DNA of 64,000 nt, from the NCBI RefSeq assembly GCF_004364285.1, contig NZ_SOBE01000002.1:930001-994000 (forward strand), given 5' to 3'. The position numbers and the translations under genes are program-made. The notes below the pieces were generated by a model. That model was not told the origin of the DNA and searched no databases. It saw only the letters and a list, made by a program, of their open reading frames with translations. This document shows positions 2,064 to 16,129 of the stretch, in pieces; positions within the stretch are counted from its first letter, which is position 1; every line of letters begins with the position of its first letter. Origin of the DNA: Frigoribacterium sp. PhB116. Lineage in GTDB: Bacteria > Actinomycetota > Actinomycetes > Actinomycetales > Microbacteriaceae.

Positions 2064-2575
2064 GCGGCCCGGCCCGCGCCTCCGTGCCGGTCGACCCGTC
2101 GCCGGTCGGCCCGTCGGCCGTCGACCCGTCGCCGGTCGACCCGTCCGCCGTCGATCCGCTCGCGCTCGAGAGCCAGATCTGCTTCGCCCTGTCCGTCGCC
2201 TCGCGCAGCGTGGTGTCCGCCTACCGTCCCGTGCTCGAGCCGATGGGACTGACCCACCCGCAGTACCTCGTGATGCTCGCCCTCTGGGAGCAGCAGCCGC
2301 TGGCGCTCCGCGACCTCGCCCGGCTGCTGCGGCTCGACCCCGGCACGCTGTCGCCGCTGGTGAAGCGTCTCGAGGTGCAGGGCCTGGTGACCCGCGGTCG
2401 GAGCGCGGACGACGAACGAGCGCTGAGCATCGAGCTGACCGGCGCGGGGATCGCCCTTCGCGAACGGGCCGAGTCGATCCCCGAGCGCATGATGACCCGG
2501 CTCGACGTCACCCGCGACGAGCTGGTGCTGCTGCACCGCGCCATGGCGAAGCTGATCGCGGCGGCCGAGGCCTGA
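2060..2575 (+). CDS. ohrR: OhrR-type MarR family transcriptional regulator
   Basis: 171 residues. After a 33-residue repetitive tail (VDPSPVGPSAVDPSPVDPSA) the protein matches OhrR: ESQICFALSVASR carries the reactive N-terminal cysteine (Cys41 here), followed by LTHPQYLVMLALWE and the winged helix-turn-helix (LRLDPGTLSPLVKRLEVQGLV). OhrR repressors sense organic hydroperoxides by oxidation of that cysteine. No ohr peroxidase gene lies in the window, so the main target may be elsewhere or may be its own operon. The GTG start overlaps the upstream stop by 4 nt. A later start near LALESQ would remove the repeat tail and cannot be excluded. Confidence 0.8.
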   Translation: MSGPARASVPVDPSPVGPSAVDPSPVDPSAVDPLALESQICFALSVASRSVVSAYRPVLEPMGLTHPQYLVMLALWEQQPLALRDLARLLRLDPGTLSPLVKRLEVQGLVTRGRSADDERALSIELTGAGIALRERAESIPERMMTRLDVTRDELVLLHRAMAKLIAAAEA

Positions 2576-2594
2576 GCCGCACCTGTCGCGGCGG

Positions 2595-3992
2595 TCAGTC
2601 GCGGGGCAGGCGCGGCAGCGGGCGCTCGGAGAGCCAGGCCGCGAAGAGCGCCTCGAGCTCGCCGGCGTCGTGGCCGCTGACGCGCACGCAGTGCCGCACG
2701 AAGTCGTCGGTCGACACGGCGCCGTGCCGGTTCTCGTCGGCCCAGCCGCGGAGCACGGCGGAGAACGCGTCGTCGCCGATCGTCAGCCGCAGGGCCTGCA
2801 GCGTCAGGGCGCCGCGCTTGTACACGCGGTCGTCGAACATCGCGTCCGGTCCGGGGTCGCCGACCGTGATGTCGTGCGGCGGCAGGGCGAGCCGCAGGTG
2901 CGTGCGGCGGGCGTGGGTCGCGACCGAGGCGCCGCCGGACCACTCCGACCAGAGCCACTCGGCATAGCAGGCGAACCCCTCGTTGAGCCAGATGTGCCGC
3001 CAGGAGGCGACGCCGACGCTGTTGCCGAACCACTGGTGGGCGAGCTCGTGCGCGATCAGCCGATCGCTGCCGGAGCGCCCGTCGGCGTGGTTGGCCCCGA
3101 AGACGGCGACGCCCTGCGCCTCCAGCGGGATCTCGAGGTCGTCCGCCGTCACCACCACCGTGTAGCCGCCGAAGGGGTACGGGCCGAAGGCGGCCGTGAA
3201 GCAGCGCACCATCTCGGGCACGGCGCCGAAGTCGTGGTCGATCCGCGCGCGCAGGTCGGGCGGGCCGACGAGGGCGCCGCGGAGGGGCGCGTCGTCGGTG
3301 CCGAGGGCGAGCTCGCGCGACTCGTAGCGGCCGATCTGCACGGTGGCGAGGTAGCTCGAGGTCGGCTCGGGCTGCTCGAAGGTCCAGGTGACCTTGCCGG
3401 GACTCGAGCGACGGGACACGAGGTCGCCGTTGCAGACCACGTGGTAGCCGTGCTCCACGTCGATCCGGGTGCGGTAGGTGGCCTTGTCGCCCGGGCGGTC
3501 GTTGCACGGGAACCAGGTCGCGGCGCCGTCCGGCTGCGCCGCGACGATGACCCCGTCCGTGAGCTCCTCCCAGCCGACCTCGCCCCACGGGCCGCGCCGT
3601 GGGGCCGGCCGGCCCGAGTAGTCGACGACGGTGGTGAACCGGGCGCCCGCCTCCGCGTCCTGGGGCAGCGTCACCGTCAGCTTCGTCGTGCTCTGGCTGA
3701 AGCGGGCCTTGTGTCCGTCGACGCGCACGCGCGAGACGCGGAGGCCGACGAGGTCGAAGACCGCACGACGCAGCGGCGCCGTGGCGACGGCCGAGACGGT
3801 CGCCCGGCCGTCGAGCCGGTTGGTGGCGACCCGGTACGAGAGCTCGAGGTCGTAGGAGGCGACGGTGAAGTCGTCAGCGCCGCTGCCCGGCGTGTACTGG
3901 TCGGGCAGAGCGTCACGGGGCACAGCGTCGTCGGGCACAGTGCCATCGAACACGCTCTCGTCGGTCGCGGTGCCGTCGGACGGTCCGCTCAC
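2595..3992 (-). CDS. M1 family zinc metallopeptidase (aminopeptidase) of the pls operon
   Basis: 465 residues. The zinc site is complete: HELAHQ at 315-320 (His315, Glu316, His319) and the third ligand Glu338 in WLNEGF. Tyr391 (YKRGALTLQ) is the likely transition-state tyrosine. The GxMEN exopeptidase motif is replaced by AQGVAVFGANH. There is no signal peptide; the first ~35 residues are an acidic repeat (DGTVPDDAVPRDALPDQ). At 465 residues it is much shorter than PepN (~870), retaining the N-terminal beta domain and the catalytic domain. Its GTG overlaps the stop of the synthetase gene (GTGA). By analogy with peptide-degrading peptidases reported in poly-lysine producers, it may degrade or trim the polymer; that is inference. 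Confidence 0.85.
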   Translation of the reverse strand: MSGPSDGTATDESVFDGTVPDDAVPRDALPDQYTPGSGADDFTVASYDLELSYRVATNRLDGRATVSAVATAPLRRAVFDLVGLRVSRVRVDGHKARFSQSTTKLTVTLPQDAEAGARFTTVVDYSGRPAPRRGPWGEVGWEELTDGVIVAAQPDGAATWFPCNDRPGDKATYRTRIDVEHGYHVVCNGDLVSRRSSPGKVTWTFEQPEPTSSYLATVQIGRYESRELALGTDDAPLRGALVGPPDLRARIDHDFGAVPEMVRCFTAAFGPYPFGGYTVVVTADDLEIPLEAQGVAVFGANHADGRSGSDRLIAHELAHQWFGNSVGVASWRHIWLNEGFACYAEWLWSEWSGGASVATHARRTHLRLALPPHDITVGDPGPDAMFDDRVYKRGALTLQALRLTIGDDAFSAVLRGWADENRHGAVSTDDFVRHCVRVSGHDAGELEALFAAWLSERPLPRLPRD

Positions 3993-6900
3993 GAGGTGGC
4001 CGCGTGGTAGTCGGAGTGGCGGACCTCGCGCCACGGCCCGATCGGGTTGCCGCTCCACCGGCTGCCGACGGGCACGCCCTCGCCGCGCATCACGAGGGAG
4101 GCAGGGCCGACGGTGGCGTGGCTGCCGACCACGGCCGCCGGCAGCACGACGCTGTGGGGGCCGAGGGCGGCGCCGGCGTCGAGGGTCACGGCGTCCATGG
4201 ACATGATCCGGTCGTGGAACAGGTGCGTCTGCACCACGCAGCCCCGGCCGACGGTCGATCCGTCGCCCAGGGTGACCAGGTCGGCCTCGGGCAGCCAGTA
4301 GCTGTCCGTCCAGACGCCGCGGCCGATGCGGGCCCCGAGGCTGCGGAGCCACCACACGAGCGCGGGCGTCCCCGTGGCGGCCCGGGCGAACCACGGCGCG
4401 GCCAGCATCTCGGTGAAGACGTCGGCCACCTCGCTGCGCCAGACGAACGACGACCAGAGCGGCTGCTCACCGGCCCGCACACGGCCGATCAGGGCCCACT
4501 TGGAGGCGGTGGTCACGACGGCGGCGACGAGCCCGGCCGCGATCAGGACGACTCCGCTCGCGAGCCCCGCCAGCAGCGGGCCCCACGCGGCGGCGAGGCC
4601 GGCGAGGGCGAAGAGCACCCCGGTGCCGAGCAGCACGGTGACGACGACGGGGACGACGCGGCCGAGCTCCCACGCGGCGCGCGCGACCCGCAGCCGCGTC
4701 GGGGGGCGGAACGTGAGCGACTCGTCGGCAGCAGCCACGGTGCGCCGCAGCCGGACGGGCGGCGACCCGAGCCAGGACGAGCCGGGACGCGACTTCGGGG
4801 GAGCCGCCGAGAGCACGGCGACGAGGCCGTCGTCGGGCACCCGGTGGCCGGGCCCTGCCATGCCCGAGTTCCCCAGGAACGCGCGGCGCCCGATCTCGGC
4901 CCGGGCCACGCGCAGGTGCCCGCCGCCGAGCTCGTACGAGGCGACGAGCGTGTCGTCGGCGAGGAACGCGCCGTCGCGGACGGTCGTCATGACGGGCAGC
5001 AGCAGCACCGTCGACGCCTCGACGTCCCGGCCCACGCGGGCCCCCAGGAGGCGCAGCCACACCGGGGTCGCGAGGCTCGAGTAGATCGGGAACAGATACG
5101 TCCGCGCGAGGTCGAGCAGCCGCTCCGTGCTCCAGACCTGCCAGCCGACGCGGCTGCGGACCGGCCACGTCCCCTCGGCCACGCCGAGGCCGAGCAGACG
5201 GACCAGCACGACGACCGCGACGGCGGCGACGACGCCGGCGACGAGCGTGCCGGGCACGATCCAGGCGGCTGCCCGCCACCAGGCCTCGCCGAGCGTCGCC
5301 GAGCCGCGCACGCCGGCCGCGACCACGACGGCGCCGGCCACGAGCGAGACCCCGGGCAGCAGCGACAGCAGCACCGACGAGGCGCCGTAGGCCCACAGCC
5401 ACCGGGTCGCGCGAGGAGGACGCTCCGCGGGCCACCAGGCCTTGGCGCGCCCGCTGCGGGCGGCCGGCGAGCCCGACCAGGCCTGCCCGGCCGGCACGCG
5501 CCCGAAGACCGCCGAGCCGGGCGCGACCGTGGCGTGCTTGCCGATGCGGGTGCCGGGCAGCAGCGTGCTGCGCATGCCCACGGTGCTGCCCGCGCCGATC
5601 CGGACGGCTCCGAGGCGGAGCACGTCGCCGTCGAGCCACCAGCCCGAGAGGTCGACCTCGGGCTCGATCGAGGCGCCCCGGCCGACCCGCAGCATGCCCG
5701 TGACCGGCGGCAGGGCGTGCAGGTCGACGTCGGGGGCGATCCGTGCGCCGAGCGCCCTCGCGTAGTAGCTCACCCAGGGGGCACCGGCGAGGCCGACCGC
5801 GGCGACCTGCTCCTGCACCTGCTCGGCGGCCCAGAGCCGGAGGTGAACGCTGCCGCCGCGCGGGTGGTCGCCGGCCTGGACGCCCCGCAGCAGGAGGCGC
5901 GCGGCGACGACCGAGATCAGCATGCGTCCTGGCGGCGTCACGAACAGGACGAGGCCGGCGGCCAGGAGCCAGGGGGAGGTGCGGGGCAGGAACTCGAAGC
6001 CGTCGACCGTCCGCAGAACCGCCGACGCGGTGAGCGCCCAGACGAGCCAGCGGAGCCCGCCGAGCGTCTGCAGGGGGAGCGCGAGCAGGGTCTGCAGCCA
6101 CTGCGCGCGCAGCGGCGTGGGGGCTGAGCGGCGGTAGTCGTCCCGGCCGGTTCCGGTTCCGGTGCCGCCGCCTTTCTCACCTCGCTCCTCGGCGCGGGCG
6201 GCGAGGTCGGCCGCCATCGAGCCGAGCCGCGGGTGCGAGTAGACGTCGGCCACGGTGTACTCGGGGTCGCGCGAGCGGATGCGGGCCACGAGCTGCGCCG
6301 CGGCCAGCGAGCCGCCGCCGAGGTCGAAGAAGTCGGCGGCCGCGTCGACGACGGGCAGCCCGAGCACGGCCTGCCAGTCGGCGGAGAGGACGGCCTCGTC
6401 GGCGCGCAGCCCCGTCTCGGCGGCGCCCTGCTCGGGCAGGGGCCAGGGCAGCGCCTCCCGGTCGATCTTGCCCGACGTCTTCGTCGGCAGGTCGCCGTCG
6501 ACGACGGCGAGGAGCGGGACGAGCGCAGCGGGGAGCTCCGTGCGGAGGCGGGCCAGCGCCTCCGTGCGGTCGAGGGCGGCGCCCGCCACCAGGGCGAGGT
6601 AGCCGACGATGACCTGGTTGCCGGCGTCGGTCGTCCGCACCGCCGCCGCCGCGCCGGCGACGTCCGGCAGCGCCTGCAGGGCCGTCTCGATCTCGCCCAG
6701 CTCGATGCGGCGACCGCCGACCTTGACCTGGTCGTCGGCGCGGCCCTGGAACACGAGGCCCTCGCGCTCGAGGCGCACCAGGTCGCCGCTCCGGTAGGCG
6801 CGGGCCCAGCCGAGCCCCTCGTGCGGCGCGTACTTCTCGGCGTCCTTCGCGGGGTCGAGGTAGCGCGCGAGTCCCGCGCCGCCGATGATCAGCTCGCCGA

Positions 6901-8002
6901 CCTCGCCCTCGGCGACCGGCCGGCCCGCCGCGTCCACGACGGCCGCGTCCCAGCCGTCGAGGGGCACGCCGATGCGGACGGGCTCGCCCGGCACGACCAG
7001 TGCTCCGGTGGCGACGACGGTGGACTCGGTCGGCCCGTAGGTGTTCCAGACCTCGCGGCCGTCGGCGCAGACCCGGCCGACGAGGTCGGACGGGAACGCC
7101 TCGCCGCCGAAGATCAGCAGCCGGACCGACTCGAGCGCCTCGGCCGGCCACAGCGCCGCGAGGGTCGGCACGGTCGAGACGACGGTGATGCCGTGCGTCA
7201 CGAGCCACGGCCCGAGGTCGGCCCCCGACCGGACCAGGCTGCGCGGCGCGGGCACCAGGCAGGCGCCGCTGCGCCAGGCGAGCCACATCTCCTCGCAGGA
7301 GGCGTCGAAGGCGACCGAGAGACCGGCCAGCACCCGGTCGCCCGGCCCGAGCGGCTCCTCCTGCAGGAACAGCCGCGCCTCGGCGTCGACGAAGGCGGAC
7401 GCTGCCCGGTGGCTGGCGGCGACGCCCTTGGGCGTGCCGGTCGAGCCCGAGGTGAAGATGACCCAGGCGTCGTCCGCGGGCCTGGGAGCGGCGGCGGCGA
7501 CCGACGGGACGCCCTGCGTCGTCGTGCTGGCGTGCGGGACCCGACCGCTGAACAGGGCGGCGCCCTCGAGGTCGCCCTGCCCGGGCGTCCGGTAGACGCC
7601 GCCGGCGCCCACGACGCCCGCCACGTCGGCCTCGCCGAAGACCAGCGCGGCGCGCTCCTCGGGGTCGTCGGCGTCGACCGGCACGTACGCTGCACCGGCC
7701 GTGAGCACGGCCAGGATCGCGAGGTGGAGGCGCCGGTCGCCCGACGGCATCCGCACGCCGACCCGGTCGCCCCGGCCCACGCCTGCGTCGACGAGCACGC
7801 CGGCCGCCGTCGCGACCTGCGCCGAGAGCTCGCGGTAGCTCAGTGCCCCGCGCTCGTCCTCGAGGGCCGAGGCCTCGGGGTGCGCGAGCGTCGTCGCCCA
7901 CAGCACGTCGACGAGGGTGCGCGGCTCGGCCGCGAGCGGCGACCGGAGGAAGGTCGCGGCGGGGAACGGGTCGGGCGTCGGCGTCGAGGGGGTGTCCGGC
8001 AT
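3989..8002 (-). CDS. Pls/PosA family non-ribosomal peptide synthetase (poly-amino acid synthetase)
   Basis: 1337 residues, close to the ~1320 of epsilon-poly-L-lysine synthetase. Adenylation domain: residues ~30-520, with FTSGSTGTPKG (183-193), FDASCEEMW (Asp233 for the alpha-amino group; Glu237 at the position of Trp239 in GrsA), NTYGPTEST, and TSGKIDREAL (Lys512). Carrier domain: ~533-600, with DFFDLGGGSL (Ser565 takes the phosphopantetheine arm). The rest alternates membrane segments with three soluble left-handed beta-helix (hexapeptide-repeat) acyltransferase-like domains, the layout that replaces condensation and thioesterase domains in Pls. There is no classical C or TE domain. Glu at the pocket position fits a basic diamino acid (Lys, Orn, Dab or Dpr), but the monomer is not determined. 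SD-like GGAGAG lies 9 nt before the ATG. Confidence 0.9.
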   Translation of the reverse strand: MPDTPSTPTPDPFPAATFLRSPLAAEPRTLVDVLWATTLAHPEASALEDERGALSYRELSAQVATAAGVLVDAGVGRGDRVGVRMPSGDRRLHLAILAVLTAGAAYVPVDADDPEERAALVFGEADVAGVVGAGGVYRTPGQGDLEGAALFSGRVPHASTTTQGVPSVAAAAPRPADDAWVIFTSGSTGTPKGVAASHRAASAFVDAEARLFLQEEPLGPGDRVLAGLSVAFDASCEEMWLAWRSGACLVPAPRSLVRSGADLGPWLVTHGITVVSTVPTLAALWPAEALESVRLLIFGGEAFPSDLVGRVCADGREVWNTYGPTESTVVATGALVVPGEPVRIGVPLDGWDAAVVDAAGRPVAEGEVGELIIGGAGLARYLDPAKDAEKYAPHEGLGWARAYRSGDLVRLEREGLVFQGRADDQVKVGGRRIELGEIETALQALPDVAGAAAAVRTTDAGNQVIVGYLALVAGAALDRTEALARLRTELPAALVPLLAVVDGDLPTKTSGKIDREALPWPLPEQGAAETGLRADEAVLSADWQAVLGLPVVDAAADFFDLGGGSLAAAQLVARIRSRDPEYTVADVYSHPRLGSMAADLAARAEERGEKGGGTGTGTGRDDYRRSAPTPLRAQWLQTLLALPLQTLGGLRWLVWALTASAVLRTVDGFEFLPRTSPWLLAAGLVLFVTPPGRMLISVVAARLLLRGVQAGDHPRGGSVHLRLWAAEQVQEQVAAVGLAGAPWVSYYARALGARIAPDVDLHALPPVTGMLRVGRGASIEPEVDLSGWWLDGDVLRLGAVRIGAGSTVGMRSTLLPGTRIGKHATVAPGSAVFGRVPAGQAWSGSPAARSGRAKAWWPAERPPRATRWLWAYGASSVLLSLLPGVSLVAGAVVVAAGVRGSATLGEAWWRAAAWIVPGTLVAGVVAAVAVVVLVRLLGLGVAEGTWPVRSRVGWQVWSTERLLDLARTYLFPIYSSLATPVWLRLLGARVGRDVEASTVLLLPVMTTVRDGAFLADDTLVASYELGGGHLRVARAEIGRRAFLGNSGMAGPGHRVPDDGLVAVLSAAPPKSRPGSSWLGSPPVRLRRTVAAADESLTFRPPTRLRVARAAWELGRVVPVVVTVLLGTGVLFALAGLAAAWGPLLAGLASGVVLIAAGLVAAVVTTASKWALIGRVRAGEQPLWSSFVWRSEVADVFTEMLAAPWFARAATGTPALVWWLRSLGARIGRGVWTDSYWLPEADLVTLGDGSTVGRGCVVQTHLFHDRIMSMDAVTLDAGAALGPHSVVLPAAVVGSHATVGPASLVMRGEGVPVGSRWSGNPIGPWREVRHSDYHAATS

Positions 8003-8108
8003 CGGTCGGGCTCTCCGGGTGGGCTCGGGGCGAGGGCTGCCCGATCGATCGAGCGAGCTGCTCGGTCGTGGGGGCGGCGCGCGGCGGGCGGCGTGGTCGC
8101 TCGGGAAC

Positions 8109-8816
8109 CTAGGCCGCCGCGGTGGCCGGGAGGTGAACGCGGACGCGCGCGCGGTCGAGCCCGGGGCCGGCCACGGCGGCCACGAGAGGGCTCGGCAGCG
8201 CCAGGTCGGCGACGGTGGGGGCCGGGCCGGGGAGCTCCGACTCCGGGGCAGCGTCGCCCTCGACCTGCTCGCTCCAGACGCCCGGCGCCGTCGGCCGCAG
8301 GGTCACCGCGTCGGGGTCGCGGGTCAGGCCCTCGCCCGTCGACTTGAGCAGCGCTTCCGTGCGCACCCAGCGGGCGAGGTCGCCTGACGGGCGGATGCCT
8401 GCTGACGCGGCCTCGAGGTCGACGCCCACGTCGAGCCCGCGGCGGAGCGCGATCAACGCGTGCCCCTCCGAGCGGCTCAGCGAGAAGCGCAGCGGGCGGC
8501 CGGACGCCAGCGCCGGGCGGCCGTGCGGGCCGCCGCAGCGCGGGCACGCCTCACGGACGAGCTCGACCGCCGACGGGTGCACCTCCAGCGACGCGCCCAG
8601 CAGGAGGCGGAGGGCGACGTGCGAGACCAGCCAGCGATGGCGGTCGGTCGCGTCGTGCAGCCGCGCGGCCCTGGCCCGCTCGTCGGCGTCGAGCCACGAC
8701 GCCGGGGCGCCCTCCGGCCGTGCCAGCCCGAGCGAGGCGACGACGCCGTCGGCCGTGTCGTCCAGCGGCACCAGCCAGGTCGACACCGGTGCCGGAGGGA
8801 ACAGGGCGGTGGTCAC
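8109..8816 (-). CDS. 4'-phosphopantetheinyl transferase, Sfp type
   Basis: 235 residues. VGVDLEAAS is the Mg-binding motif and WVRTEALLKSTGEGL is the W/FxxxEAxxK motif of Sfp-type PPTases. CPRCGGPHGRP is the P-loop-like element seen in actinobacterial members. It should convert the apo carrier domain of the adjacent synthetase to the holo form by transferring phosphopantetheine from CoA to Ser565. It lies 106 nt upstream of the synthetase gene and 4 nt downstream of the small first gene, so co-transcription is likely. The start is GTG. Confidence 0.9.
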   Translation of the reverse strand: MTTALFPPAPVSTWLVPLDDTADGVVASLGLARPEGAPASWLDADERARAARLHDATDRHRWLVSHVALRLLLGASLEVHPSAVELVREACPRCGGPHGRPALASGRPLRFSLSRSEGHALIALRRGLDVGVDLEAASAGIRPSGDLARWVRTEALLKSTGEGLTRDPDAVTLRPTAPGVWSEQVEGDAAPESELPGPAPTVADLALPSPLVAAVAGPGLDRARVRVHLPATAAA

Positions 8817-8820
8817 GAGC

Positions 8821-9132
8821 TCAGCGCAGCGGCTGCGGGGCCACAGCCGGGCGTGACCAGCGGACGTCGACCGGCCGGCCGACCACCCGCGACTCGATCT
8901 CGCTGCGGAACGACTCGACGAAGTGCGCGGCGGAGCGCTCGTCCGAGACGACGACGTCGAGGCGCAGCGAGCGCAGCTCGTCGGTGACGAGCACGGGGCC
9001 GTCGCAGAAGCGCAGCAGGTACTGGTGGGACTTCACGGGGATGCTCTCCCAGTGCCGCCGCAGGCTCGTCTCGAGCTGGCGGACGGAGTCGATGCCGTCG
9101 GCCTGCCGCACCTCGGCGCTGATCGCGATCAT
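8821..9132 (-). CDS. Conserved-looking 103-residue protein, first gene of the pls operon
   Basis: Family not recognised. The protein starts MIAISAEVRQADGIDSVRQL and alternates short strands and helices, with a charged centre (HWESIPVKSHQYLLRF) and a C-terminal VDVRW. There are no membrane segments, no signal peptide and one cysteine. The stop is 4 nt before the PPTase GTG. CACGAT (9144-9139) ends 6 nt before the ATG and may be the -10 box of the whole operon. Codon use is like its neighbours. A role in regulating or assembling the synthetase is possible from position only. Confidence 0.65.
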   Translation of the reverse strand: MIAISAEVRQADGIDSVRQLETSLRRHWESIPVKSHQYLLRFCDGPVLVTDELRSLRLDVVVSDERSAAHFVESFRSEIESRVVGRPVDVRWSRPAVAPQPLR

Positions 9133-9242
9133 GCGGGCATCGTGCACCCCGCGAGCGACGAGCACGTGAACGCGAGGTGACGGTCTCCTGCGCAGCCGGC
9201 CGGTGCCTCTCCCGGCGGCCGGGGGCACCCGCCGCCCCATTC

Positions 9243-9252
9243 GTATTACCAT
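9243..9252. promoter_or_regulatory. AT-rich core of the pls/gntK divergent region
   Basis: GTATTACCAT is one of the few AT-rich spots in the region. It contains TACCAT on the + strand and TAATAC on the - strand, both -10-like. The + box would give the gluconokinase leader a transcript start near 9259. No good -35 is visible. Confidence 0.35.
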
Positions 9253-9349
9253 TGGGCCGAGAGCGGCGCCGACGCCTCTGCGTCGCCGGTCGGCTCGCAG
9301 CCCCATCCGACGACGAGATCGCACGGTCGCGACCTCGAGAGGACACGAC

Positions 9350-9421
9350 ATGACCACCCCGAGCCCCGCGCCCGTCCCCTCCGCCTCCGCCTCGGCCTCG
9401 GCCTCGGGCGAGGCTCGCTGA
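9350..9421 (+). CDS. Upstream ORF (23-residue peptide) coupled to gluconokinase
   Basis: MTTPSPAPVPSASASASASG is followed by EAR and a stop that overlaps the gntK ATG (TGATG). It has a good Shine-Dalgarno sequence (GAGAGGA, 9337-9343), better than the one directly before gntK. The Ser-Ala run comes from a hexanucleotide repeat (tccgcc/tcggcc). It may serve translational coupling rather than act as a functional peptide. There is no run of a single amino acid typical of attenuation. Confidence 0.45.
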   Translation: MTTPSPAPVPSASASASASGEAR

Positions 9422-10005
9422 TGGCCACCCTCGAGAACGCGGGCGCCGCCTCCTCGGCGCCGCTCGTGCCGGGGTCGGCCCGCCACCCGGCGCACGACTC
9501 GGACCCGGTGCTCGTCGTGATGGGGGTGTCGGGGTCGGGCAAGTCGACCGTCGCCGCCCTCGTCGCCGAGCGCCTCGGCTGGGACCTCGCCGAGGGCGAC
9601 GACCTGCACCCCGACGAGAACGTCGCCAAGATGGCCGCTGGTCAGCCGCTCGACGACGACGACCGGGCGCCCTGGCTCGACACGGTCTCGTCGTGGATCG
9701 TCGAGCACGCGATGCAGGGCGTGCCCGGCGTCATCACCTGCTCGGCGCTGAAGCGGAAGTACCGCGACGTGCTGCGCGAGCACAACGTCGTCTTCGTCTA
9801 CCTGCAGGGCAGCGGTGACCTGATCGGCGGCCGGATGTCCGAGCGCTCGGGGCACTTCATGCCGACGACGCTGCTCGACTCGCAGGTCGCGACGCTCGAG
9901 CCGCCGCAGGCCGACGAGCGACACGTCGTCGTCGACGCCACGCGCACCCCGGAGGAGGAGGCGGATGACGTGCTCCGCCTGCTCGGCCTGACGCCCGTCG
10001 CCTGA
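9421..10005 (+). CDS. gntK: Gluconokinase
   Basis: 194 residues. A 28-residue Ala/Pro-rich N-terminal extension precedes VLVVMGVSGSGKST, the P-loop, then DDLHPDENVAKM (sugar-binding region), CSALKRKYRD and FMPTTLLDSQ, all diagnostic of bacterial GntK. It phosphorylates gluconate to 6-phosphogluconate for the pentose phosphate or phosphoketolase route. The start overlaps the stop of a short upstream ORF. No gluconate permease or GntR regulator lies next to it. A gluconolactonase-like gene and phosphoketolase are found 9-14 kb away. Confidence 0.92.
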   Translation: MATLENAGAASSAPLVPGSARHPAHDSDPVLVVMGVSGSGKSTVAALVAERLGWDLAEGDDLHPDENVAKMAAGQPLDDDDRAPWLDTVSSWIVEHAMQGVPGVITCSALKRKYRDVLREHNVVFVYLQGSGDLIGGRMSERSGHFMPTTLLDSQVATLEPPQADERHVVVDATRTPEEEADDVLRLLGLTPVA

Positions 10006-10038
10006 CGACGGCCGCCTCACGCGCGCCCTGAGCCGTCG

Positions 10039-10073
10039 GAGAAGGTCCTGCCCGTGTTCGGGGAGGACCTCTC
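10039..10073. terminator. Hairpin between convergent gntK and GNAT genes
   Basis: GAGAAGGTCCT (10039-10049) pairs with AGGACCTCTC (10064-10073) with one bulged base. The loop is 14 nt. There is no U-run on either side, so efficiency is uncertain. Confidence 0.5.
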
Positions 10074-10115
10074 CCGTCGGTTCGCGCTCCTGCTGATCGG
10101 GCATGCGCCTGCCGA

Positions 10116-10676
10116 TCAGGCGCCGGAGGCGCGGGTGGCGCGGTACAGGACGTGGGGCCGGAGGCGGTGGCCGGGCGGCAGGGCCGGGTGCTCGAAGTCG
10201 TCGGCCGGGTCGCGCGTCAGGCCGAGCCGCTCCATCAAGGCACGGGAGCGGAGGTTGGTCGCGGCCGTGAAGCTCACGACCTCGGGCAGGTCGAGCCCGT
10301 CGGGGTCGAGGGCGGTGCGGAGCACCTCGCGCGCGGCCTCGGTGGCGAGGCCCTGTCCCCAGGCGTCACGGCGCAGGCGCCAGCCGATCTCGACCTGGTC
10401 GGCGAGCGGCCGGCCGCCGACGACCACGTCGACCGACGGTCGCGACAGGCCGACGAAGCCGAGCAGCTGGTGGTCGGCGCGTCGCTCGACTGCCCAGAGG
10501 CCGAAGCCGTCCGCGTCGAAGCCCTGCTCGATCCGGTCGATCATCGCGTCGGACTCGGCCCGGGTGCGCGTCGAGGGGAAGAACTCCATCACGACGGGGT
10601 CCGCGTTCAGCGCCGCGAACGGCTCGCGGTCGGCGTCGCGCCAGCGGCGGAGGAGGAGACGGTCGGTGGTGGGCAC
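10116..10676 (-). CDS. GNAT family N-acetyltransferase (RimJ/RimL-like)
   Basis: 186 residues. It begins TDRLLLRRWRDADREPFAAL and contains QVEIGWRLRRDAWGQGLATEA, where WGQGLATEA is the acetyl-CoA pyrophosphate loop, then NLRSRALMERLGL. This is the Acetyltransf_3 (RimJ/RimL) pattern for N-terminal or small-molecule acetylation; the substrate is unknown. The GTG start was chosen because TACCGT (10688-10683) ends 6 nt upstream. An imperfect CTGATCGG...CCGATCAG hairpin overlaps its stop codon. Confidence 0.85.
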   Translation of the reverse strand: MPTTDRLLLRRWRDADREPFAALNADPVVMEFFPSTRTRAESDAMIDRIEQGFDADGFGLWAVERRADHQLLGFVGLSRPSVDVVVGGRPLADQVEIGWRLRRDAWGQGLATEAAREVLRTALDPDGLDLPEVVSFTAATNLRSRALMERLGLTRDPADDFEHPALPPGHRLRPHVLYRATRASGA

Positions 10677-10752
10677 GGGTCGACGGTAGCGGAGGCGACC
10701 GGCCGACCCGCGCCTCCTGCGGGCCGACCCGCGGTTCATGCTGCGGCTGCTG

Positions 10753-11250
10753 TCAGGCTGCGGGGCCGGGCGCGGTGCGTCCGGCGGCGGCGCGCGCGCG
10801 GGCCGTGTCGGCGCGCGGGCCGACGGGCACCGCCTCCGTCGCCAGGGCGAGGCCGGAGGCGGGCATCCCGACGTACATGCTCTCGGCGCGCTCGACGACG
10901 AACGTCTCGTGCCAGATGCCGACCGCGCCCGGCGCCTTGCGGGCACGGCGGTTGAAGGCGCTCCACGCGGGACGGTGGGCCTGGTCGGCCGAGCCGGCGT
11001 AGGCGTAGAGCTTCTCGAGCGAGTCCCAGTACTGCACCAGCACCGGCCCTCGCGAGCCGATCGTGGTGCGTAGGCCGCGGAGCCCCGACTCCTTGTCCCT
11101 GAACAGCTCGACGATCATCGGGGTCATCGCGGCGAACACGGGCAGCCACTGGTCGGGCCGCCAGACCTTGTTGACGCGCATGCCGATCAGGAAGACGACG
11201 AGCTCGCCGTCGTGCCGGTGGGTCGTCCTGCCGGGGATGACACGGGCCAT
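10753..11250 (-). CDS. DUF4188 domain-containing protein
   Basis: 165 residues. ELVVFLIGMRVNKVWRPDQW, GPVLVQYWDSLEKLYAYA and GIWHETFVVERAESMYVGMP are the conserved blocks of DUF4188, a family with a ferredoxin-like/monooxygenase-type fold whose members often neighbour MerR regulators. No catalytic role is established. The C-terminal ~20 residues are Ala/Arg-rich. GAAGGAGCG is a clear ribosome-binding site before the ATG. It is divergent from a MerR gene across a symmetric operator and is probably its target. Confidence 0.8.
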   Translation of the reverse strand: MARVIPGRTTHRHDGELVVFLIGMRVNKVWRPDQWLPVFAAMTPMIVELFRDKESGLRGLRTTIGSRGPVLVQYWDSLEKLYAYAGSADQAHRPAWSAFNRRARKAPGAVGIWHETFVVERAESMYVGMPASGLALATEAVPVGPRADTARARAAAGRTAPGPAA

Positions 11251-11293
11251 GATCTCGCTCCTTCGACGCGTCTGCGCGGGTGGGTGCCTGGTG

Positions 11294-11349
11294 ATTGGAT
11301 AGTGTTGCTCTCCAGTGCGCTCCCATCTTGGAGAGTGCAGCTATCCAAT
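11294..11349. promoter_or_regulatory. Symmetric divergent operator of the DUF4188/MerR pair
   Basis: Two nested inverted repeats share one centre. The outer arms are ATTGGATAG (11294-11302) and CTATCCAAT (11341-11349), a perfect 9 bp. The inner arms are CTCTCCA (11309-11315) and TGGAGAG (11329-11335). Each half therefore reads GGATAG, five variable bases, CTCTCCA. Each gene sees CTATCCAAT on its proximal side, so both promoters probably lie inside the element and a MerR dimer could control both. Confidence 0.65.
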
Positions 11350-11363
11350 GTCAAGGGGGACCC

Positions 11364-12008
11364 GTGCGCATCTCCGAGCTCGCCGACGTCAGCGGCGTCC
11401 CGATCGCGACCATCAAGTACTACCTGCGCGAGGGGCTGCTGCCCGAGGGCGAGCGCACCTCGGCGACGCAGGCCCGCTACGGCGACGAGCACGTGCGGCG
11501 GCTCAGGCTCGTGCGGGCGCTGGTCGGCCCCGGCGGGCTGAGCGTGGCGCGGGCACGCGGAGTGCTCGAGTTCCTCGACCTGGAACACGACTCGGTGGGG
11601 GAGGTGCTCGGCGTCGCCCAGCACGCGGTCACGCCCGACGCTCCCGAGGGAGTCGACCACGCCCGGGCCCGCGGCCTCGTCGAGCGCTGGGGCTGGACCG
11701 TCGACCCCGGTGACGGCCCGGTGCTCGCCGCGCTCGAGGTCGCCGTCGACGGGCTCGAGGCCGCCGGCTTCGACCTGCCGCCCGAGCGCCTCGACGGCTA
11801 CGCGCGGGCCATGCACGACGTCGCGGACGCCGAGATCGCGGGTGTCCCGCTCGAGAGCGTCGACGCGGCCGTGCAGTACGTGGTGCTGGGCACGGTGCTG
11901 GTCGAGCCGTTGCTGCTGGCGCTCCGGCGGCTGGCGCAGCAGGACTCGTCGTGGCGGCGCTTCGGCGACCTCGTCGGCGGGCTGCCGGTGCCGCCGCCTC
12001 CGGTCTAG
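11364..12008 (+). CDS. MerR family transcriptional regulator
   Basis: 214 residues. The N-terminal MerR helix-turn-helix is RISELADVSGVPIATIKYYL, with the second block EERTSATQARYGDEHVRRLRLV. The rest is a helical region with no cysteines, so metal sensing of the usual type is unlikely; a hydrophobic or organic ligand or oligomerisation domain is more plausible. The GTG start follows SD-like AAGGGGG and gives the standard VRISELA beginning. It probably controls the divergent DUF4188 gene and itself. Confidence 0.88.
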   Translation: MRISELADVSGVPIATIKYYLREGLLPEGERTSATQARYGDEHVRRLRLVRALVGPGGLSVARARGVLEFLDLEHDSVGEVLGVAQHAVTPDAPEGVDHARARGLVERWGWTVDPGDGPVLAALEVAVDGLEAAGFDLPPERLDGYARAMHDVADAEIAGVPLESVDAAVQYVVLGTVLVEPLLLALRRLAQQDSSWRRFGDLVGGLPVPPPPV

Positions 12009-12029
12009 GGCTCGACAGGGGCGGCGACC

Positions 12030-13424
12030 CTAGGAGGCGCGGCGCGTGCCCCGCAGGCCGACGAACGAGACGAGCGCGCTGCCGACGAGCAGCACCGCGA
12101 CCACGACGACGACGCGGTGGAACCCTTCGACCGTGAGGGCGCCTCCGGCGATCACCCCCAGGAACGCCACGGCGACCAACCCGGCCACCCGCGAGATCGC
12201 GTTGTTGACCGCCGACGCGATGCCCGACCTGGCCGGCGAGATGCCCGACAGCACGGCCGAGGTGAGCGGCGCGACCGTGACGGAGAGCCCGAGCCCGAAG
12301 AGGACGACCCCGGGAACGACCTGCCACCAGACGTCGATCGGGTCACGGACGAGCAGCATCCAGAGGAACCCGCTCGCCGTGATCAGCGGCCCGACCGTCA
12401 TGAAGAGGCGGGGCCCGTGCGTCGCGGCGAGCGTGCCGAACATCGTCGAGAAGAGCAGCGACACGATCGTCGTCGGCAGGGTGACGAGGCCGGCGAGCGT
12501 GGCCGAGAGGCCGGCGAGCTCCTGCACGACGAGGGGGATGGTCAGCGTGCCGAGGTTGATGGCGGCGTAGAGGCCGACGGTGGCGAGGTTGCCGACGGCG
12601 AACTCGCGGGTGCGGAACAGATCCAGCGGCATCATCGGCTGCGGCGCCCGCCGCTCCCACCAGACGAAGGCGACGAGCGCGACGACGCCGACGACGAGCG
12701 GCACGACGACGAACCAGGCGCCGAACCCGACGCGCTGGCCCTCGATGAGCGCGAAGACCGGGCCCGCGAGGCCGACCGCGGCGAGCACGGCGCCGCCGAC
12801 GTCGACGCGGGCAGGCTGGTCGGGCCCGCCCCGGTGCGCGTCGCCGGGCAGGCGCGTCATCAGCGCGAGCGTCAGCACCACCGGCACGACCACCACGGCG
12901 AACACCCAGCGCCAGCCGAGGGTGTCGACGAGGGCGCCGCCGGCGAGCGGGCCGATCAGGAACGCGACGCCCGTCCAGGCGGTCCACGAGCCGATCGCGC
13001 GGCCCTGGGCCGGCCCGCTGAAGGTCGACGTGATGAGTGCGAGGCTCGACGGGACGAGCAGGGCCGCCGCGACGCCCTGCAGCGCGCGGGCGGCGATGAG
13101 CAGGCCGGGGTCGGGCGCGAGCGCGGCGAGGACGCTCGTCAGCGCGAACGCGACGAGGCCGGCTCGCAGCACCCGCACCCGGCCGAACGTGTCGCTGAGC
13201 GAGCCCGCGACGAGCATCAACGAGCCGAGGGCGAGCAGGTACGCGTCGACGACCCACTGCTGCAGGGTCAGGTCCGCCCCGCCCGCCGGGCCCGCGCCTC
13301 CGTCGCCGAGGTCTCGTGCGATCGCCGGCAGCGCGACGGTCACGATCGACCCGTCGAGGAACGCCACGAAGGAGGCGAGGACCGCGACCACGAGGACGAT
13401 GCGCTGGCCGCGGGCGTCTGTCAT
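12030..13424 (-). CDS. MFS drug/multidrug exporter (DHA2, EmrB/QacA-like)
   Basis: 464 residues and about 14 hydrophobic segments. FLDGSIVTVALPAIARDLG is motif D1, GSLSDTFGRVRVLRAG is motif A, and GWRWVFAVVVVPVV with PARSGIASAVNNAISRVAG matches QacA/EmrB proteins. It is likely a proton-coupled efflux pump for hydrophobic or cationic drugs; the substrate is unknown. GGGAGGAG lies about 9 nt before the ATG. No local TetR regulator is present. A dispersed palindromic repeat lies between this gene's start and the 3' end of ligD. Confidence 0.88.
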   Translation of the reverse strand: MTDARGQRIVLVVAVLASFVAFLDGSIVTVALPAIARDLGDGGAGPAGGADLTLQQWVVDAYLLALGSLMLVAGSLSDTFGRVRVLRAGLVAFALTSVLAALAPDPGLLIAARALQGVAAALLVPSSLALITSTFSGPAQGRAIGSWTAWTGVAFLIGPLAGGALVDTLGWRWVFAVVVVPVVLTLALMTRLPGDAHRGGPDQPARVDVGGAVLAAVGLAGPVFALIEGQRVGFGAWFVVVPLVVGVVALVAFVWWERRAPQPMMPLDLFRTREFAVGNLATVGLYAAINLGTLTIPLVVQELAGLSATLAGLVTLPTTIVSLLFSTMFGTLAATHGPRLFMTVGPLITASGFLWMLLVRDPIDVWWQVVPGVVLFGLGLSVTVAPLTSAVLSGISPARSGIASAVNNAISRVAGLVAVAFLGVIAGGALTVEGFHRVVVVVAVLLVGSALVSFVGLRGTRRAS

Positions 13425-13470
13425 CCCCCGAGTCTCCTCCCTGCCGGTGTCGGCCGCGGTCCCGCTCTCA

Positions 13471-13528
13471 CACCCTGCAGTGGACGATGCACCCCGCAAC
13501 GACGGGGTGCATCGTCCACTCCGGGGTG
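13471..13528. repeat. Dispersed palindromic element, copy 1
   Basis: An imperfect palindrome with ~26-nt arms (two mismatches) around a 6-nt centre. The inner 18 bp are perfect (AGTGGACGATGCACCCCG and its complement, 13479-13496/13503-13520). The arm itself contains CACCC(C/T)G twice. It lies in a ~110-bp gap upstream of the MFS gene and downstream of ligD. A second copy lies at 56.55 kb. Confidence 0.8.
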
Positions 13529-13537
13529 CCAGACGGG

Positions 13538-16129
13538 TCAGCTCTCGCGGACGACGTCGTCGGGCGACTTGTCGGGGCGCCAGCCGCGCCACGACGGCTG
13601 GCGGAGGCGGCCGGTCGAGGTCCACTCGGCGAACGACACCTCGCCGACCCGTGACGGCGTGATCCAGTGCGCGTCGCGGGCGTCGGCGGCGGGCACGTCG
13701 ACGAGCGGGCTGGTCTTCCGCTCGACTCCGCGGAACTCCGTCAGCAGCGCGTCGAGGTCGCGATCGCGGAAGCCCGTGCCCACCCGTCCGACGTACACGA
13801 GCCCCTCGTCGCCGGGCACGCCCATCAGCAGCGAGCCGACGCCGGAGGCGCGACGCCCGTTCCCGGGACGCCAGCCCGCGATCACCACCTCCTGCGTCGC
13901 GTGGTGCTTCATCTTGATCCAGGCGCGAGAGCGTCGGCCGGCGCTGTAGGTCGCGTCGCGGCGCTTGGCGACCACCCCCTCGAGCCGGAGGCGCTGCGAG
14001 GTCCGCATCGCCTCCTCCAGGTCGCCGTCGAAGACGGCGGGCACGTCGACCGGGCCCTCGGAGGTCACGATCCGCTCGAGCACCTCGCGTCGTTCGTCGT
14101 AGGTCGACCGCAGCAGCGACCTGCCCTCGGCGTGCAGCACGTCGAAGAGCAGGTACCGGATCGGCGCTCCCTTCGCGGCCTGCTCGACCTCACGGGGCTT
14201 CGTCAGGCCCATCCGCGTCTGCAGCAGCCCGAAGTCGGGGCGACCGACCTCGTCGACGGCCACGACCTCGCCGTCGAGCACCGCGCCTCCGTCGCTCTCG
14301 ACCTGGTCTGCCAGCACCTGCAGCTCGGGGTAGGCAGGGGTCAGGTCGTGGCCGTTGCGGCTGGTCAGCGTCACGCGGTCGCCCTGGACGACGGCGATCG
14401 CGCGGATGCCGTCCCACTTCATCTCGATCGCCCAGTCGTCGTCGACGTCGGCGGCGGTGCCCGCGACGGCGAGCATCGGGGAGACGGGATCGAGCGCATC
14501 GCCGGGATCGTCGCCTGACCGGTCCGACGAGGAGGCGCGGGTCGAGCGGGCAGATCCGGACCCGGTCCCCGAGCCGATCACCGTCCGCCCCTTCCTGCTG
14601 GACTTCTTCCCGGCCTCCTTCTTCGCCGTCATCGTGCCGTGACCGCCCGAGGAGCCCCCGTCGGCGCCTCCCGCGTCGTCGTCCTTCATCCGGTGGATCA
14701 ACCAGTTCTGGTCGGCCTTGCCGCCGCCGTGGCCGGTGTGGATCAGGGCGACCCGGCGGGTGCCGCGCTGCTCCCCGTGCAGCACGGCGATCACCTCCTT
14801 GCTGTCCCGCCATTTCTCGACGTCGTAGGTGCCTGAGTCCCAGATGGTGACCTCGCCGGCGCCGTACTCGCCCTTCGCGATGGTGCCCTCGAAGGTGCCG
14901 TACTCGAGCGGGTGGTCCTCGGTCATCACGGCGAGGTGGTTCGTGCCGGGGTCGTCGGGCTCGCCCTTGGGCAGGGCCCAGCTGACGAGGACGCCGTCGT
15001 GCTCGAGGCGGAAGTCCCAGTGCAGGCGGCTGGCGTGGTGCTCCTGGATGACGAAGCTGCGGCCGTCGCTGGTCGGCGGGGCGGCGGCGGGAACCGGCTC
15101 GGCGGTCTTCGACGCGTCGCGCATGGAGCGGTACTTCGCGAGGCGGTCGCGCCGCTCGCGCGTCTCGCCGTCGCCGTCGGCCGTCTGGTCGTGCTCGGGA
15201 GACTCGGTGTTGCGCATGTCGTCGCCGAGCTCACCCGGCGGCACGGGCGTGCCGCTCGAGACATCGGCCAGCGGGTCTCCTCGGCGCTTCAGCCTGGCCA
15301 GGACCTCGGTGTACTCGAGCTGCTCGAGGCTCTTGGACGCCAGCTCGCGCCAGGTGCGCGGCATCGCGACGGTCGGCCGCTCGCGGCCGCGCAGCGAGTA
15401 CGGCGCCACCGTCGTCTTGTTGCCGTTGTTCTGCGACCAGTCGAGCAGCACCTTGCCCCGGCGGTCGGCCTTGCCCATCGTGCTCAGCACGAGGTCGGGG
15501 TGGTCGGCCTCGACGGCCCGGGCGAGCTCGTGGGCGACGTCGCTGACCTGGGCACTCGTCTGCTTCCCGTCGAGCCGCGCGTAGAGGTGCACGCCCTTGC
15601 TGCCGCTCGTCACCGGCACGAGCTCGAGGCCCATGCCGTCGAGCAGGGGCCGCAGCAGCTGGGCGACCTCGACGCACTCGGCCAGGCCCACGCCCTCGCC
15701 CGGGTCGAGGTCGAGCACGAGCCGGTCGGGGTTCCGCTGCGCACCGCGCGGGCCGAAGCGCCACTGCGGCACGTGCACCTCGAGCGCCGCGACCTGGGCC
15801 AGCCAGGTCAGCGTCGCGAGGTCGCTGACCATCGGGTAGACGTTGGCGTGGTCCTTGTGCTCGATCTCGTGACGCGCGACCCACTCTGGTGCCGAGTCGG
15901 GCAGGTTCTTCTCGAAGAAGACCTCGCCGTCGACGCCGTTCACCCAGCGCTTCCGCGTCGCGGGACGGCCCTCGACGTGCGGCAGCATCCACTCCGCCAC
16001 GGCGGCGTAGTAGCCGAGGACGTCCGCCTTCGTCGTGCCGCTCGCGGGGTAGAGCACCTTGTCGAGGTTGGTGAGCTGCAGCGTGTGCCCGCCGACCTGC
16101 ACGCGCTCGCCGCGTCCCTTGCTGGCCAT
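13538..16129 (-). CDS. ligD: Multifunctional NHEJ DNA ligase LigD (POL-PE-LIG)
   Basis: 863 residues in the mycobacterial domain order. The polymerase/primase domain (~1-290) has the metal-binding pair in LVLDLDPGEG (Asp140, Asp142). The 3'-phosphoesterase domain (~345-490) has EHHASRLHWDFRLEHDG. A ~60-residue Ser/Gly/Lys linker follows, then the ATP-dependent ligase (~550-863) with nucleotidyl-lysine Lys571 in EMKWDGIRA. It fills, trims and seals double-strand breaks with Ku, whose gene is 1.1 kb away. The start codon follows GAGGAGG, which here is part of the recurring GGAGGCGC motif. Confidence 0.95.
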   Translation of the reverse strand: MASKGRGERVQVGGHTLQLTNLDKVLYPASGTTKADVLGYYAAVAEWMLPHVEGRPATRKRWVNGVDGEVFFEKNLPDSAPEWVARHEIEHKDHANVYPMVSDLATLTWLAQVAALEVHVPQWRFGPRGAQRNPDRLVLDLDPGEGVGLAECVEVAQLLRPLLDGMGLELVPVTSGSKGVHLYARLDGKQTSAQVSDVAHELARAVEADHPDLVLSTMGKADRRGKVLLDWSQNNGNKTTVAPYSLRGRERPTVAMPRTWRELASKSLEQLEYTEVLARLKRRGDPLADVSSGTPVPPGELGDDMRNTESPEHDQTADGDGETRERRDRLAKYRSMRDASKTAEPVPAAAPPTSDGRSFVIQEHHASRLHWDFRLEHDGVLVSWALPKGEPDDPGTNHLAVMTEDHPLEYGTFEGTIAKGEYGAGEVTIWDSGTYDVEKWRDSKEVIAVLHGEQRGTRRVALIHTGHGGGKADQNWLIHRMKDDDAGGADGGSSGGHGTMTAKKEAGKKSSRKGRTVIGSGTGSGSARSTRASSSDRSGDDPGDALDPVSPMLAVAGTAADVDDDWAIEMKWDGIRAIAVVQGDRVTLTSRNGHDLTPAYPELQVLADQVESDGGAVLDGEVVAVDEVGRPDFGLLQTRMGLTKPREVEQAAKGAPIRYLLFDVLHAEGRSLLRSTYDERREVLERIVTSEGPVDVPAVFDGDLEEAMRTSQRLRLEGVVAKRRDATYSAGRRSRAWIKMKHHATQEVVIAGWRPGNGRRASGVGSLLMGVPGDEGLVYVGRVGTGFRDRDLDALLTEFRGVERKTSPLVDVPAADARDAHWITPSRVGEVSFAEWTSTGRLRQPSWRGWRPDKSPDDVVRES

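Follow-up and report, generated by a model that had tools for sequence, protein, structure and literature searches.

A predicted epsilon-poly-L-lysine cassette with its own phosphopantetheinyl transferase in Frigoribacterium sp. PhB116

Which polymer would be made by the product of a Pls-like synthetase gene in Frigoribacterium sp. PhB116 (Microbacteriaceae), and which of the neighbouring genes belong to the same system? The locus lies in a stretch of 64,000 nucleotides of contig NZ_SOBE01000002.1 (positions 930,001 to 994,000), designated here as the window. Four open reading frames (ORFs) on its minus strand code, in this order, for a small protein, a 4'-phosphopantetheinyl transferase (PPTase), the synthetase, and an M1 peptidase. 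A preliminary description had read them as a four-gene operon for a poly-amino acid. Its ORFs, their sizes, and their spacing (a 4-nt gap between the small protein and PPTase genes, a 106-nt gap between the PPTase and synthetase genes, and a 4-nt overlap between the synthetase and M1 genes) were reproduced exactly when the ORFs were re-checked, and the core of three genes, PPTase-pls-M1, stands. It very probably represents a cassette for epsilon-poly-L-lysine (epsilon-PL), an antimicrobial polymer and food preservative made with Streptomyces. In the proposed mechanism, the PPTase would attach phosphopantetheine to the carrier (T) domain of Pls, and the adenylation (A) domain, judged by its pocket code, would activate L-lysine. 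The membrane part would join lysines from epsilon-amino to alpha-carboxyl group and the chain would leave the cell, as is established for Streptomyces Pls. The co-translated M1 peptidase, of PldII type, would shorten or remove the polymer and protect the cell, as reported for S. albulus.

The synthetase matches the Pls/PosA family profile TIGR02353 of NCBIfam with 697.6 bits (cut-off 423.1) over profile positions 2-695 of 695. Its Pfam matches are AMP-binding (209 bits), PP-binding (39.5 bits), and Hexapep (48.4 bits), and no Condensation or Thioesterase domain was identified in it at E<=1, so a Pls/PosA-type enzyme without these two domains, as described before, is borne out. The best sequence match of the A domain in PDB is epsilon-poly-L-lysine synthase 7wew, the Pls of S. 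albulus (E 6.3e-186), with 65.4% identity over 482 aligned columns. When the register of pocket positions is set by the GrsA-PheA motifs, the pocket residues are D233, A234, E237, S276, I297, G299, T321, V329, V330, and K512; Asp233 and Glu237 are thus at the positions given earlier. The resulting code, DAESIGTVVK, is that of 7wew at all ten positions, and the predicted substrate is therefore L-lysine. The same code was found in 97 of 100 aligned loci (the window and a duplicate record counted), with DAESVGTVVK in L063 and L065 and DFEYNGTVTK in L078, and in 99 of 100 further loci of the family, the remaining one having DAESVGTVVK.

A synthetase using ornithine, diaminobutyrate (Dab), diaminopropionate (Dap), or beta-lysine, and making a different cationic polymer, is very improbable, even though the Pls/PosA family includes such enzymes. 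PosA of Acinetobacter baumannii, a delta-poly-L-ornithine synthetase, has the same A-T-membrane architecture and the same pocket Asp and Glu as the window enzyme, but it activates L-ornithine and its code is DMEHNGTVSK (PMC10522769). According to the same source, Ala at the second code position goes with lysine enzymes, while Met marks the ornithine enzyme PosA and Phe the Dap and Dab enzymes; the window code has Ala. The single divergent locus in the code set, L078, has only a weak M1-like match, coded on the opposite strand. The cationic homopolymer of the preliminary description is supported, but its open choice of substrate among Lys, Orn, Dab, and Dpr was too vague and is rejected in favour of lysine, as the comparison of the extracted code with Pls and PosA matches the lysine enzymes.

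Three other synthetase loci deserve description. The divergent Pls-like synthetase of L078 (2581-6639, genome G046) is 34% identical, and its polymer is perhaps a different one, of Dap or Dab. In L321 (G153), two overlapping frames together code for the synthetase, either because the copy is broken or because of a sequencing error, and the M1 and PPTase genes are where they usually lie. Genome G041 has a complete pls and, in addition, partial TIGR02353 matches and AMP-binding stretches at L082 (G041:C14) and at G041:C1:867334-870203, which are either fragments or additional synthetases.

The membrane half of the synthetase (residues 633-1337) was modelled by AF2 from an alignment of 51 sequences. 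The model (pLDDT 89.7, pTM 0.89) shows three beta-helix domains and six long helices, five of which pass the hydropathy threshold of 1.6; Pls enzymes have three tandem domains of this acetyltransferase-like kind, with six membrane segments between them. Mainly beta-helix acetyltransferases of PDB were recovered in Foldseek (best E 5.2e-5), with TM-scores over the query of at most 0.15 among the matches listed. Among the polar residues conserved in at least 99 of 100 rows (without L078 and 7wew) are H762, H1260, and H1263, the latter two within the motif QTHLFHDR of the third beta-helix domain. By their conservation, these three are candidate catalytic residues, no more.

The product of the gene behind pls has Pfam matches to Peptidase_M1 (89.8 bits) and Peptidase_M1_N (56.3 bits). 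Residues E291, H315, E316, H319, E338, and Y391 are invariant across 99 rows (L078 left out); they make up the HExxH-18-E zinc site, the catalytic Tyr (Y391), and the Glu that binds the N-terminus (E291). An M1 gene follows pls on the same strand in 99 of the 100 loci, window included, with the divergent L078 as the exception, and it lies on the pls strand in all 100 loci of the family sample, among them L280, where it was first scored as upstream owing to a long open frame that ends behind pls. The M1 genes beside Streptomyces pls also match the window protein. By analogy with the system of S. albulus, the M1 peptidase would be of PldII type and would degrade the polymer in self-protection; as an M1 zinc peptidase partner of the synthetase, it had been correctly described.

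Several of these features are known from related systems. In S. albulus, pls and pldII overlap by 4 bp within a single operon (PMC4361855), so that the A-domain code and an overlapping M1-type gene for the degrading enzyme directly downstream are shared with the window; PldII is treated as needed for self-protection (PMC9223678). Corynebacterium variabile has a pls-peptidase operon, and S. coelicolor produces epsilon-PL with the pls of this species (PMC8117764); this and other coryneform Pls resemble the window enzyme in architecture, and C. variabile also in the peptidase neighbour. Homologues of pls are reported in Microbacterium (PMC8117764), and epsilon-PL clusters in Agrococcus and Microbacterium (PMC12067966). 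The difference lies in the PPTase. In the window its gene is directly upstream of pls, but the profile of pls-linked PPTases found none in the stretches of the 13 Streptomyces loci in the set of 80 named loci described below, and in the parts of the papers available no PPTase neighbour is described for the C. variabile, Microbacterium, and Agrococcus clusters (PMC8117764, PMC12067966). The main text of PMC12067966 does not contain the word "phosphopantetheinyl". No published report of a PPTase-pls link was found in the open-licence literature available in part, where a figure or supplement may show one. Both the polymer system and its occurrence in relatives are thus already known, and the PPTase partner is well supported, with no description of it found.

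The PPTase has the motifs GVDLE and W...EA..K, corresponding to G-x-D-x-E and W-x-x-K-E-A-x-x-K, the motifs of Sfp-type enzymes. In 17 aligned rows, G131, D133, E135, W150, E154, A155, and K158 are invariant. Several other pls-linked PPTases have Ile, Val, or Thr at position 153, with Glu154 and Lys158 kept. A PDB search with the PPTase gave one chance-level TetR match only. Two PF01648 matches were found in the window genome, a short AcpS-like one and the cassette PPTase. A profile search of this genome revealed no condensation domain, and its only carrier-protein matches are the Pls T domain and one acyl carrier protein, which lies between ORFs read as FabH and FabF. The PPTase thus has no evident client other than the Pls T domain, which it presumably activates.

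All 16 available genomes of the genus were searched, and Pls above the cut-off was found in eight. The cassette-type PPTase is present in these eight, adjoining pls in each, and in none of the eight Pls-negative genomes, which have one PF01648 match each. Two such matches, one of them the cassette copy, were found in six of the eight Pls-positive genomes. Neither of the two in G004 is the cassette copy, so a further PPTase is present there, and G008 has a single match, its cassette copy being under the threshold. In a family draw of 299 genomes, 116 have Pls above the cut-off, and they represent 41 of the 85 genera. Seventeen pls-linked PPTases were combined into a profile (at most ten candidates scored per genome, other PPTase types uncounted), which matched 132 genomes, namely 114 of the 116 with Pls and 18 of the 183 others (Fisher p 4e-60, uncorrected for kinship). 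The two Pls genomes without a match are G293, with a Pls fragment only, and G322.

Linkage was then counted in the Pls genomes, nine of which were in the earlier set and 100 + 4 of which were sampled, with G293, G324, and G358 left out. The PPTase gene is beside pls in 88 of the 100 sampled loci and in all four additional ones. Among the 88, it is downstream and convergent in 85 and upstream and co-directional in three (L295, L297, and L303), which share their genus with L070, so the upstream co-directional arrangement occurs in the genus of the window and one other genus of the family. The stretches of two of the 12 loci without a linked PPTase, L245 and L263, are incomplete. At least one PPTase beside a canonical pls was seen in 39 of the 41 Pls genera by our own count, genera not being independent samples.

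It is improbable that the PPTase works on unrelated carrier proteins and adjoins pls through descent alone. A PPTase of this type does occur in the 18 Pls-negative genomes, and the two exceptional genera also point that way: g8 has none beside pls in six loci (one incomplete) but has it elsewhere in five of the six genomes, and in g92 no such PPTase adjoins the canonical pls, but three genomes that carry this pls have a second, divergent synthetase at another place, with a same-strand PPTase gene 1.8-5.5 kb upstream of it. The co-occurrence with Pls, the linkage in 88/100 and 4/4 loci, and the lack of another visible client in the window genome argue against it, and a PPTase of the cassette's own, as first described, is supported by motifs, co-occurrence, and linkage alike. 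The second synthetase of g92 (L318, L319, and L320) has no M1 gene in the stretch. Strong matches to the pls-linked profile (E 3e-35 to 9e-49) away from pls were also seen in the Pls-carrying genomes G094 (L198), G095 (L199), and G091 (L212).

The arrangement was also followed in 80 named loci, the best 80 of at least 591. A PPTase gene is within the stretch in 26 of them, 23 of 29 from Micrococcales and 3 of 51 from others (own classing by record title; several stretches end at contig ends). Forty of these genomes were searched whole, and all 40 have a PF01648 match. By our own count, at least two matches were found in 20 of 25 genomes without a linked PPTase and in 13 of 15 with one, the linked copy included where detected. 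With such matches elsewhere in the genome, the pls genomes without a linked PPTase plausibly use one encoded elsewhere.

We give an even chance to a wider reading, in which pls-pldII is a portable and self-sufficient cassette of Microbacteriaceae and other Micrococcales that acquired a private PPTase more than once and comes and goes at several sites within the genus. Repeated attachment is suggested by genomes without pls, which mostly lack the cassette-type PPTase, and two modes of it would be the upstream co-directional one in the window and the downstream convergent one elsewhere. Whether all pls-linked PPTases go back to one origin was tested in a tree with 40 linked and 16 unlinked rows (56 in total). 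The linked ones, which diverge fast, do not form one clade; eight label changes were counted, at least three forced by well-supported branches. Still, the labels cluster far more strongly than in any of 500 shuffles, which had 14 changes on average and never as few as eight. The tree is weak, as 24 of 53 inner branches are starred, L207, L209, and L216 are under half filled, and four rows have long branches; with this weakness, it fits repeated attachment.

Some points weigh against an epsilon-poly-L-lysine cassette in the window. The adenylation pocket bears on the amino acid that is activated and not on polymer length or linkage. The first helix of the membrane half (residues about 634-663) fails the hydropathy threshold. 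The PPTase reaches 19.9 bits with PF01648 of Pfam, below the cut-off of 25, and has Thr at residue 153 where WxxKEAxxK has Lys; the relatives that occupy its place in G005 and G009 exceed the cut-off (28.9 and 28.3 bits). C. variabile itself had no detectable epsilon-PL in culture (PMC8117764), and the window locus may therefore be silent too. With these points counted in, epsilon-poly-L-lysine is still the polymer that we consider very probable.

Features of the locus are collected in Table 1. The cassette has a G+C content of 76.6%, compared with 73.2% and 73.5% in the flanks. A promoter and terminator scan gave no promoter-like site and one terminator-like site, with 0.5 expected.

Table 1. 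Position of the genes, synthetase domains, and missing stretch in the window
Feature	Position	Strand	Remarks
M1 metallopeptidase, PldII position	2595-3992	-	465 aa, GTG start
pls synthetase	3989-8002	-	1337 aa, ATG = first start after preceding stop
pls domains	A ~10-524, T ~539-598, from ~633 membrane part (three beta-helix domains)		residues of the 3989-8002 product
Sfp-type 4'-phosphopantetheinyl transferase (PPTase)	8109-8816	-	235 aa, GTG start
Small protein, function not assigned	8821-9132	-	103 aa, ATG start
Stretch missing at empty site of close relative L083 (G001)	2573..8820	.	alignment to L083

The small protein matches no Pfam or NCBIfam family above the cut-off, with one chance-level match in each. 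As its gene is on the same strand and only 4 nt from the PPTase gene, the two are probably co-transcribed, and the cassette directly behind it may share its transcript. A functional operon of four genes, with the small protein as a working part such as a regulator or helper of Pls, is nevertheless hardly probable. The small protein is present in all 16 genomes of the genus, eight of them without Pls. Among the eight Pls genomes, its gene is beside the cassette in three, window included, and outside the cassette stretch in five. Neither the small gene nor the order small gene-PPTase-pls-M1 was found in any of the 80 named loci or the 100 further loci of the family.

The small gene also stands at sites that lack the cassette. 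Positions 1-2572 and 8821-15224 of the window align at 87% and 90% to positions 5368-7908 and 7954-14246 of L083, where 45 bases lie between the two aligned pieces, which hold a MarR-like gene and the small gene. The same empty site was found in G012 (L084), with seven bases between the aligned pieces, and in the other six Pls-negative genomes of the genus (L085-L090) the MarR-like and small genes are close together. The cassettes of G005, G009, G013, and G015 are at one other common site with conserved flanks, and G007, with the small gene outside the cassette stretch, keeps the MarR side of the window site. The small protein is a bystander, a resident neighbour outside the polymer system, and its place as fourth member of the operon is withdrawn. 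Weaker second relatives of it (about 29-36% identity) are present in many genomes of the genus (L049-L062) and form a small unnamed family with it.

As a discovery about the window, the cassette is ordinary, the polymer system being known in related bacteria. Its wider meaning is in the family, as small non-filamentous Microbacteriaceae with synthetase, PPTase, and peptidase could be alternative sources of epsilon-poly-lysine. The strong co-occurrence of PPTase and Pls also points to a possible cause of silence in a pls moved to another host, namely that its T domain would remain in the apo form.

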